Shown in pieces: positions 40,664-49,033 of a DNA stretch of 64,000 nucleotides. The stretch lies in NCBI GenBank assembly GCA_037576195.1, contig CM075101.1, positions 41,292,001 to 41,356,000 of the forward strand, read 5' to 3'. This stretch comes from Phytoseiulus persimilis (taxonomy: Eukaryota > Arthropoda > Arachnida > Mesostigmata > Phytoseiidae). The stretch's first letter is position 1. Every line of letters starts with the position of its first letter. Made by a program: the position numbers and the translations under genes. Below the pieces are notes generated by a model. The model saw only the letters and a list, made by a program, of their open reading frames with translations, was not told where the DNA came from and did not search any database.

Positions 40664-43600
40664 TCAAATGGAAGCGTACAACTGCTGTATAAACTGATTG
40701 GCTAATTTGAGGTCTAGTCCTAAGCGCTGAGCTATCGCCTGAGCACGAGCTATGCCTTCGTTTTCGTAGAGGAGATCGGACACTTTATCCAGTGCAACTA
40801 GAGCCAGAGACTCGGTAGATCCTCCCAAAAGTGCTCTCATGTACGAGTCGCGCCGATTGCTCCACTCATTCAGCTCGCCGAGGGTAACTCTGCAACGCAA
40901 ACAACATTCTCCGCTTCAATTGCGTTCCCCCTGACCAATGGCGGACTCCATACTTCCGGCCCCTAATTGCATGACGAGCCTCTGATTCATATTTTCTGAT
41001 CTCGGGATTTCCTACCTGAATACGCTGGCGGCGAAAACTCTCCCTTCTTTCTGAGCGTAGTCAACAGCTTCTAATCTGAACATGAGAATCTCCTTCAGGC
41101 TATCTCCCTTGGCACCGGCGAGTCTACCTTTGCGAAGCTTCACGAAGTGCCTGCGGCATTCCAGCCAGCGTGAAAGACACCTGTATCGTGGGAATGCCGT
41201 TAATCCACTACCCTGAACCGCCGAAGCCGTCAATGATGGTAGCTTCCCACCGTCAATGGCTGCCATTCAACTCACCTCATCGAGATTCCAATCTCTTTCG
41301 CAGTTTCGATCTGATCCCCTGAGAGCTTGATATACATCGAATTGTCGTCGTGATTTCCGTTACATTCTTTCGATGAAGTCTGATTCCCATTCAAGTCGAC
41401 CACGACGGACGAGCTCTGCTCCTCCTTCGAGGTGACCGTGCTGTCGTTGTTATTTGCATCCATGAGCAACTCGTCCATTTCCAGAGCGTCGCCGTTGGTC
41501 ATCATCGGGGCCGGACTCGGGGAACGACTCTTCTCCAAGGATGACAGGTTTCTTTGCGAAGCCCGAGTGCTCCGTTCCGTGGTCGGTGATGAGTCGCCAT
41601 TCGTGACCGGCCGGGGGATTTGCTGAGTTGGACTTGAGTCGCAGCGTCGAGCCTGTATGCAGAACTAAGCGTGAGAATTTTTGATTTCTCCTGGAACGTC
41701 TTGCCGCCCAACGTGTCTCACAATCGAAACACGGAAGTTTTCCGTCTCGGATCCTCACCGTCACACTGCTCCTCACGCAACCTTTCACAAGGTCCTCAAG
41801 AGAGTTCCGAGTGATCCACGTTGCGATCGTGGTGCGAGGAATATTAAACTGAACCGAGGCGACCTTACTGCCCGCCGTAAGAGCCACTTTCAGTATAGAG
41901 ACGATCGTGTCCATCGCGAGTTCCCCCGTATCAAGAGCCCGAATGCGAGATGAAGGCTCTTGCAAATGCTTATAGAGGAGCTGGAATGTTGTCGGTACCG
42001 ATCAGCTCCGCGTCCTCGAAGTCAACTGAATGATCGCACCAGGGGAATGGGAACCGCGGGCTGACACGCATGGCAAGAACAGAGGAGGAAGGCGCAGGCA
42101 AGAGAATGTAGGGAATTGAGCCTCACTTTTTCCAGTTCATCGGCATCCATTGGAGGTGCTTTAATTTCCCGATGTATCACGCGGCTCTGGTCATCCTCAT
42201 CGTAGGTAACGACCTTGTGAACCTCCTCCTCGGGGAAGAATTTTTTCATCCATTCTTGAACGATACTTGGTTGAACCTGTCGAGAGAAGCATACTTGAAT
42301 GAGTGAGAGTCTGACTGAGGAATGATCTGCAACAGGCTAAAGAACCATCACTTCATGCCAGAGTCTTCTTGTCCCGAAAACAAGCGATTGGACTGCTTGG
42401 AATCCCACCTGGAATACTTTACAAGCCCTCGACAAACTCTGTTTCCTTGCGAGGTCGAGCACCTTCATCTGGAAATCGATTCCGAAGTCGTTGTGCTTGT
42501 TCTCCACGGAGGAACCCTGAAATTAGGAAATGTGAATGCATCGGATACTCGAATCTTCGAGGATACTTGTAAGCCGGTGGAATAATCTGGAAGACCGTCT
42601 CCTACGTACGTTTTCGCACTGAATCGCGGGTCTCGCGGAGACCCCCGTGCGGAGCCATTTCAATACTTGGCCCTCCATGACGCTGTATTGACGTGCAGCA
42701 CGTTCCACGTTAGTTTTTCGCGCGAGGTTCACGATTTGCAGAATTTCCTCTCGAGATTTGGTTTCGCCCTTGGATCCTCTCGCCACGCGATTCCTGATTC
42801 TGTCCAACGCCATCCGCCTGATTACATTCTGGAGGAAAAAAAAAATTGGGAATGTTTGTCCGAATATAGAATGGAGCTCAGCTAAGCATGATCATGAAGG
42901 AGTCCATCAACCTCGACATGGACATCCAAGTTGCGAGGGCTCAGAAGTTGAGATCAGAGTTGTCGAGGTTGAGAGATCGGGAATTGCTCCTGCTCCTCTC
43001 ACCTGGGACATATAGCTGTGAACTTCACCCGGCTTCAAGTTGTAGTGTTCAGCAGCTTTCTGAGTGGAGTTTTGGAGGGCGAATGTGACAACTTTGACTT
43101 TCTTCTCTACGCTGAGCTCGTCCGTTAATGCGTGGATAAGTCTCGTTCTCGGTTCGTCTTTCTGCTGCTGTGTCATTTTCAGGGATATTTTGAGCTTCGG
43201 AACCTTTGGGGGCTCAGAATACCTGGTCGAGGAGCATACATGTGAGCAAGGTTTTCTAGGGTACAAACGGATAACACTGAGCGACCGGGGAAAAGTTGAG
43301 GGGAACGAACCTTCGCTCCTTCTCGTCGACCTCAACTCTCTCTTTTTGAGGTCGGCAAGGAGACTTTTCCTGCTTTCGACGTGTCGTTGAGGCACAAACT
43401 CGCCTCGTTCTTCCAGAGCCTTCCTGCGCCATTTGTACAGCACCGAGTGCGAGATCTCGGGATAGCGCCGCTCGCCTTCCGCGAGTGAGTGGATGCAGAG
43501 GTAGTCCCACACACTTCTTTTGAACTCTTCCGTGTAGATCACGGTTCCTGGAGAAAACGAGGATATACGGGAATGCAAGGGCAATTCGGACTGTCTTCAG

Positions 43601-43901
43601 CCTTGAAGGTCGGCAGTGTGTCTGCACTGCTATCCGATTTCATAATGGGGGCAACGAGGATGTTGCCCCGATCGTTCTGCTCTGGAGAACCAGAGCTGTG
43701 CCCTCAAGAGGGCTTGCGGGGGTTTCACAACCTCAGCGAATCACCGATGAATGAGGAACAACACTTACCACTATCGTAGACCATCTTCTTATCGCTCTCC
43801 TTGAGTTTGTATGGAACGATCTTCTGTTTCTTGCTGGGGGGCTCATCATCGGGCCCTCCAGTTTCGAGTTCGGGATCCATGCACTCGGCGTCAGAAGGCA
43901 T
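40664..43901 (-). CDS. Tandem helix-turn-helix protein (up to eight HTH units), novel architecture
   Basis: Ten exons: 43901-43769, 43547-43331, 43222-43003, 42828-42610, 42516-42409, 42276-42127, 41980-41777, 41652-41276, 41180-41016 and 40889-40664. All nine junctions agree in phase and nearly all have CAG acceptors, giving about 672 residues. The N-terminus has an acidic patch and an NLS-like PPSKKQKIV. HTH units follow the pattern h-x-x-h-A...A-A-x-x-F-x-V-x-x-x-x-V-x-x-W: residues 51-88 (EISHSVLYKWRRK), 156-188 (KAAEHYNLKPGEV), 216-250 (VERAARQYSVMEGQVLKWLR), 278-312 (RACKVFQVQPSIVQEW), 372-407 (VASVQFNIPRTTIATW), about 527-551 (EIGISMRCLSRWLE), 577-609 (FAASVFRVTLGELNEW) and a weak 625-668. 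A Ser/Thr/Pro- then Asn/Asp-rich linker spans about 418-525. Likely a nuclear DNA-binding protein. The first exon is probably preceded by others: the frame is open above the ATG and a CTGAAG acceptor sits upstream. Confidence 0.85.
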
Positions 43902-46439: not shown

Positions 46440-46790
46440 CCCGGCGGAACAAACGGACCGTGGAGGAAAACATTGGATTCGAGTCTGTAGAGTGCACCTT
46501 CCATAGTTCGATGATTTCATTTTGGATGATGTATAGATTTTCCGCAGCAAACATTCCCCGCTGGTCTGTAAGAGTAACCCGCGAGCGATAAAGCGTGCTC
46601 CCAACCCGTGAACTCTGAAATTCAAAAATTGGCCGCCTGTCTGTAAGAGGGACCCGCCAATGGTAAATGATTCTCCACAACCTCTGGACCCTGGTAAACG
46701 AAGAAATTGGCTGCGAGTCTGTAGAAGGGACCCACAATCGATGAAATATGCTACCCAGCCCATGAACTCTGAAAAACGAAAACATTGAAC
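46440..46790. repeat. Imperfect tandem repeat, period about 75-85 bp
   Basis: Units share a block like GAGTCTGTAGAAGGGACC, followed by an AATCG/AATGG-type word and a GTGAACTCTGAAA-type word. Copies are visible near 46470, 46565, 46640 and 46715, with a decayed one near 46790. On the minus strand the repeat translates as recurring LLQT-type peptides, a by-product of the period being close to a multiple of three. It abuts the 3' end of the MULE relic. Confidence 0.6.
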
Positions 46791-48716: not shown

Positions 48717-49033
48717 CAGTACAACCTCGATTATTTCAACTAATTGATGCAAAAAAACGTTGAAATAATCGAAAGTTGAAATAATCGAAAGATGACAAAA
48801 TCACCCACATTCTTGGACTCCGCAACCGATTCGGGGTTGAGAGTCCGAGTTCGAACGAGATGTATTGACGATGGAAGATTCTGAACGATGGATTCATCTT
48901 CCTCATAAAAATACGCTCCCGGTCGACATCCTTCGGCCTGTTCCGCAGAGTTGAAATAATCGAGGTTGAAATGCGAAAGGTTGAAATAATCAAAGTTGAA
49001 ATAATCGAGGTTGAAATAATCGAGGTTGTACTG
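48717..49033. mobile_element. 317 bp pogo/Tigger-type MITE
   Basis: The ends are exact inverted repeats (CAGTACAACCTCGATTATTT and its complement, extending to at least 24 bp), flanked by TA on both sides (48715-48716 and 49034-49035). The CAGTNNAACCTCG start and TA duplication are the hallmark of pogo/Tigger elements of the Tc1/mariner superfamily. There is no transposase frame. Inside, the word GTTGAAATAATCGA recurs two or more times near the left end and four to five times near the right end, like subterminal transposase-binding sites. The near-perfect ends suggest fairly recent insertion. Confidence 0.85.

Follow-up and report, generated by a model that had tools for sequence, protein, structure and literature searches.

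The window, a stretch of 64,000 nucleotides of the Phytoseiulus persimilis genome (GenBank assembly GCA_037576195.1, contig CM075101.1, positions 41,292,001 to 41,356,000), holds a candidate gene on its minus strand whose predicted protein combines helix-turn-helix (HTH) units of a known type in an unusual way. From the profiles and pair scores the array is judged to be five firm HTH units, and probably seven if the weaker units U1 and U6 are counted. The units point to the Brinker/pogo type (BrkDBD) rather than to that of Pipsqueak. Our preferred explanation, to which we give about even weight, is a gene of the host whose product, a nuclear protein, consists of about seven Brinker/pogo-type units that have diverged; this protein would be multivalent, with only some of the units contacting DNA. 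Its origin, nuclear location, DNA contact and function are what we infer from the sequence. To our knowledge the seven-unit array would be the largest of its kind. If transcripts confirm the gene, it would exemplify how, in nature, a transposon-type HTH became a long repeat array, akin to zinc-finger arrays. It would then allow asking how HTH units diverge inside one protein, and whether many weak HTHs form a specific reader or a scaffold.

Gene model and predicted exon structure

The gene model runs from 43901 to 40664 of the window and comprises ten in-phase exons in one reading frame. Its nine introns measure 93 to 221 bases and all follow the GT–AG rule, with phase maintained across every junction. 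The GC content at codon positions one, two and three is 0.543, 0.398 and 0.610, a coding-type composition, and that of the introns is 0.505. Phase, junctions and composition bear out the single spliced frame that the original prediction had placed here. The predicted protein has 678 residues with the intron between exons 2 and 3 spliced, and 714 with this intron kept. The latter reading is possible because the intron, which follows a weak donor (GTCGAC), measures 108 bases, a multiple of three, and is free of stop codons. Of the 672-residue model proposed originally, locus and frame could be retained but not the length. No AATAAA or ATTAAA was found within 664 bases 3′ of the stop codon.

Exon 1 (43769–43901, 133 bases) is an open frame up to a GTAAGT donor at 43768 and holds the start codon and, near the N terminus, a basic stretch that is NLS-like, in agreement with the nuclear localization signal (NLS) of the original prediction. 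Exon 2 (43331–43547, 217 bases) holds U1 (43417–43536; residues 49–88 of the 678-residue model) and has an uncertain 3′ end, with either the weak donor or read-through into exon 3. The latter (43003–43222, 220 bases) contains U2 (43003–43116; residues 153–191), the final residue of which is encoded in exon 4, and exon 4 (42610–42828, 219 bases) contains U3 (42643–42759; residues 214–252). U4 (residues 274–312) is divided between exon 5 (42409–42516, 108 bases), which holds its 5′ part from 42486, and exon 6 (42127–42276, 150 bases), which holds its 3′ part to 42238. U5 (41804–41920; residues 370–408) lies in exon 7 (41759–41980, 222 bases). In exon 8 (41276–41652, 377 bases) a Ser/acidic linker is followed by the 5′ part of U6 (residues 520–558, from 41364), and exon 9 (41016–41180, 165 bases) carries the end of U6 (to 41153) and the beginning of U7 (residues 579–617, from 41092). 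Exon 10 (40664–40889, 226 bases) comprises the end of U7 (to 40850), an unsupported candidate for an eighth unit, U8 (40667–40819), and the stop codon.

The 111-residue Ser-rich linker between U5 and U6, together with the weak exon 2/3 donor, would fit two adjacent genes (U1–U5 and U6–U7) or wrong junctions, in which case there would be no single seven-unit protein. We regard this as very unlikely, since the reading phases agree at the junctions and U2 to U7 are confined to 2.3 kb of a single strand.

For the other open frames of the window, Pfam was applied to nine stretches. One frame on the plus strand, from 56415 onward, encodes two zinc fingers of the C2H2 type, with zf-C2H2 and zf-met exceeding their Pfam cut-offs, and is probably part of a separate gene. 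A 78-base tandem repeat is located at 46596–46787 (2.5 copies, 71% matches) and a 15-base tandem repeat at 48950–49028 (5.3 copies). Scans for tRNAs and Rfam families found nothing in the window.

Number and family of the units

The original prediction had given each unit a common spacing beginning with A-x-x-F/Y. In a loosened form, which was picked after the units had been seen, this pattern occurs six times in the 678-residue model, whereas 5000 shuffles average 0.047 occurrences and never exceed 2. A form near the original wording (A, F/Y, V/I/L, V/I/L, W) occurs twice (shuffle mean 0.0002, maximum 1). Across all six translated frames of the window, the loose pattern was found 11 times, three times in the gene and eight times elsewhere, with five of these eight occurrences spanning a stop codon.

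With leave-one-out profiles U2, U3 and U4 were recovered (0 of 500 shuffles), as was U7 (1.1 bits, 3 of 500), but not U1, U5 and U6, for which the best match lay elsewhere, near residues 24–38. When U2–U4 were masked, a combined profile returned U7 with 11.1 bits and U5 with 0.8 bits, to be read against 1000 shuffles with a best score of 3.9, a 99% point of 2.6 and a 95% point of −0.2; no match occurred at U1 or U6. For each of the 21 pairs among U1–U7, no more than 100 of 2000 shuffles equalled the ungapped pair score, for which the registers were placed by hand. Pairs involving U6 score worst (4 to 100 of 2000 shuffles), and the remaining ones were reached by 0 to 7. The pairwise identity among the seven units amounts to only 5–26%, and over the first 25 columns alone U5 and U7 show a weak likeness that was matched by 470 of 5000 shuffles. 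Taken together, the evidence is clear for U2, U3, U4 and U7, marginal for U5, which nevertheless sits where it is expected, and weaker for U1 and U6. The predicted at least six, probably seven or eight units hence become five firm and seven probable ones by profiles and pair scores. U8 was rejected: it has no Pfam match and was missed both by the Brinker/pogo profile described below and by the masked combined profile.

In the Pfam analysis the 678-residue model exceeded the cut-off for BrkDBD (PF09607; 28.5 bits, cut-off 23.4) with the best stretch at U3, and for HTH_28 (26.4 bits, cut-off 25) with the best stretch at residues 538–565 in the region of U6, a unit that is interrupted by an intron. 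HTH_23 remained just under its cut-off (24.5 bits compared to 24.6; best stretch 282–312, U4), and HTH_Tnp_1 was likewise under (21.7 bits compared to 24.1). None of the units given singly to Pfam came over any cut-off. U3 alone scored 21.3 bits with BrkDBD, U1 16.6 bits with HTH_Tnp_1 and U5 of exon 7 16.2 bits with Phage_CI_repr, all below the cut-offs; U7 matched solely an unrelated family (E 0.18), and U2 and U8 gave zero matches. Searched in six frames through the genome, BrkDBD placed U3 of the window last of ten rows, under the cut-off (20.1 bits, E 0.124), and among the 63 places of HTH_28 none lies inside the window. Non-HTH Pfam rows up to an E of 10 were weak, the best being RsgI_M (E 0.05), in accordance with the earlier statement that the protein has no other domain. 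NCBIfam gave two weak rows below the cut-off (IS66 accessory protein and IS481 transposase). A PDB search with the whole protein returned zero matches; with the unit profile two rows were obtained, the first of which is fly Brinker (2GLO; E 0.47 over 20 residues, not significant alone). Myb/SANT repeats were rejected, as Pfam listed no Myb model up to an E value of 10, in a scan in which the HMMER filters discard most weak matches.

For a closer assignment, a Brinker/pogo profile was built from HTH stretches of six other loci of the same genome. Three of them carry transposase-type domains by Pfam (L009, L012, L013), two were assigned by likeness (L011, L015), and one is a Brinker-like gene (L016). 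On the model this profile scored 56.6 bits in five stretches, compared to 12.3 bits for the best of 1000 shuffles, with 14.6 bits at U2, 5.9 at U3, 19.3 at U4, 2.9 at U5 and 13.0 at U7; U1 and U6 were missed. A psq profile built likewise gave 7.8 bits with two stretches of 2.2, a score that none of 1000 shuffles reached (best 7.0). A faint psq likeness is thus present, as expected of related HTHs. In the reverse test, on loci that had been chosen for matching BrkDBD or psq, a profile of six window units (U1–U5 and U7) scored 25.7 to 36.3 bits at the BrkDBD loci L009–L014 and L017, 14.7 at L016 and 11.8 at L015; no psq locus exceeded 9.4. Profile–profile comparison aligned the units with the Brinker/pogo units of the same genome at 97.4% (E 1.2e-11, 37 columns) and with psq units at 79.3% (E 1.6e-5, 20 columns). 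These results point towards units that are closer to Brinker/pogo than to Pipsqueak, a matter of unit type on which the original prediction had not decided. The Pfam scan of the model contained no row of PF05225 (HTH_psq), and none of its 22 places in the genome lies in the window; on these grounds and on the weaker psq profile scores, membership in the Pipsqueak family was rejected.

Fly Brinker has a single unit. The model resembles it in passing the BrkDBD cut-off, in the hydrophobic/W pattern and in the first PDB row of the unit profile, and differs from it by about seven units, which are not as basic as the reference units taken from this genome. Pipsqueak of Drosophila, with four HTHs and a BTB domain according to the available text of PMC10379775, shares the multiple tandem HTHs, whereas its units are of the psq type (psq profile 7.8 compared to 56.6 bits for Brinker/pogo in the model) and the model shows no BTB row in Pfam. 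The earlier claim of a tandem array with more HTH units than the four that this text gives for Pipsqueak appears to be right.

Charge of the units and possible DNA contact

The net charges of U1–U7 are 0, +2, +5, +1, 0, +3 and −1, and that of U8 is −2, whereas five reference units from this genome (three pogo-type, L016 and one psq) carry +6 to +9. From the turn to the W the values for U1–U7 are +1, 0, 0, −1, +1, +2 and −2 (references 0 to +3), and up to three residues past the W +4, 0, +1, +1, +2, +1 and −1 (references +2 to +4). Charge serves here as a proxy for DNA contact, and the stretches were cut by hand with slightly unequal lengths. The recognition-helix arginines of pogo and psq are mostly missing and are partly retained in U5 and U6. 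Basic residues in or beside the recognition helix are kept by U1, U5 and U6, and in U2, U4 and U7 this helix contains acidic residues.

The low unit charge speaks against seven equal DNA readers. The mechanism suggested originally, a tandem reader in which all or most units bind DNA simultaneously to recognise an extended site, either composite or repeated, would draw on the several HTH units in a single protein and on the precedent of Pipsqueak, whose four HTHs bind (GA)n sequences according to the available text of PMC10379775. However, the net charge of the units (−2 to +5) falls below that of all five references, U2, U3, U4 and U7 have no positive net charge from turn to W, although the reference L016 also has zero there, and conservation of basic residues is lacking in the recognition helix, where the pogo/psq arginines survive only in part (U5, U6). 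The mechanism is unsupported, and we consider it unlikely. A domesticated pogo/Brinker HTH that was exon-duplicated into a seven-unit array, with units diverged in specificity and recognizing a long composite DNA site, also appears quite unlikely from the sequence.

Units that retain the fold, have lost DNA binding and serve as protein–protein surfaces would make the protein a scaffold. The low charge, the acidic recognition-helix residues of U2, U4 and U7 and the pairwise identity of only 5–26% are in accordance with this possibility, which we rate as low but appreciable: basic residues are kept in or next to the recognition helix of U1, U5 and U6, the charges up to three residues past the W in U1 (+4) and U5 (+2) are within the reference range, and the protein as a whole has a computed pI of about 9.0.

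In the preferred explanation of a host gene for a multivalent nuclear protein, U1, U5 and U6, with their basic or psq-like recognition helices, would contact DNA weakly and jointly, whereas U2, U4 and U7 might be folded spacers or protein-binding surfaces. The protein could then be a multivalent chromatin-bound regulator. It counts against this reading that U1 and U6, chosen as DNA-contacting, are missed by the Brinker/pogo profile, and that U5 reaches only 2.9 bits.

Relatives in the genome and possible origin

A genome search with the whole protein, in which six candidates were scored, returned ten rows, all of them inside the gene itself; no second copy of the gene was found. With U3–U4 alone seven rows were obtained, three in the gene and four elsewhere (E 0.25 to 3.65), and two of the latter are pogo-type loci. 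Pfam detected BrkDBD, HTH_Tnp_Tc5 and DDE_1 together in frames of L012 and L014 of the same genome, and BrkDBD with HTH_Tnp_Tc5 in L009 and L013. The Pfam scan of the model contained neither a DDE_1 nor an HTH_Tnp_Tc5 row, and its identity as a pogo transposase was therefore rejected. A fragment of a mobile pogo element would share its HTH family with the pogo-type transposases of this genome; given introns, several Brinker-type units, the missing DDE_1 and HTH_Tnp_Tc5 and no second copy found, we hold this origin to be extremely improbable.

The preferred host gene would instead have arisen from one HTH unit, as it stands at the N terminus of the pogo-type transposases of this genome, by multiplication without the DDE transposase part and at least partly exon by exon. 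Exons 3, 4 and 7 with 220, 219 and 222 bases contain one unit apiece, near-equal lengths that fit exon duplication and may be taken as a hint of it. Additionally, the introns that interrupt U4 and U7 fall almost at one place in the unit (positions 26.0 and 25.7, one base apart). The introns in U6 and near U1–U3 have no common position. The approximately 20 residues preceding U2, U3 and U5 are alike (1 of 5000 shuffles) after one row is shifted by one residue; unshifted, 1273 of 5000 shuffles reach the value, and for U2 and U5 alone 13 of 5000.

According to the available text of PMC7386202, Passer-type pogo transposases combine BrkDBD with HTH_Tnp_Tc5, and POGK, a domesticated Passer-derived gene of vertebrates, carries BrkDBD, HTH_Tnp_Tc5, DDE_1 and KRAB. 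The model shares the first HTH type with the former, but has neither HTH_Tnp_Tc5 nor DDE_1, has ten exons and has no second copy found. Similar to POGK, it would be a host gene with BrkDBD, as proposed here, in difference to POGK without HTH_Tnp_Tc5, DDE_1 and KRAB by Pfam. No protein with more than one BrkDBD was met in the literature searched, including the available texts of PMC10027918, PMC7386202, PMC9926710, PMC10379775 and PMC10085805, a weak negative as subscription journals were little covered.

Among the stretches examined for other multi-unit genes (L040–L044), L044, a part of the L016 gene that had itself contributed to the profile, gave a match at a single unit; L042 was weak with 10.9 bits, and L040 gave 6.7. 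The L016/L044 locus (C2:50891995 and around) encodes one Brinker-like HTH unit followed by a long low-complexity tail. As a protein it exceeds the HTH_28 cut-off and stays below that of BrkDBD (19.8 bits), and its 382-residue frame shows no transposase domain. It is possibly this animal's own Brinker-like gene.

DDE_1 has at least 151 matches in the genome (150 of 328 candidates were scored), and among the matches listed none lies inside the window. Two groups stand out among these matches, with nine at C3:24224202–24320450, about 9 to 29 kb apart and including two side-by-side pieces, and six at C1:5314915–5373412, about 11 to 12 kb apart. Twelve of these 15 listed DDE_1 frames contain one internal TAG, and both clusters look like locally multiplied elements.
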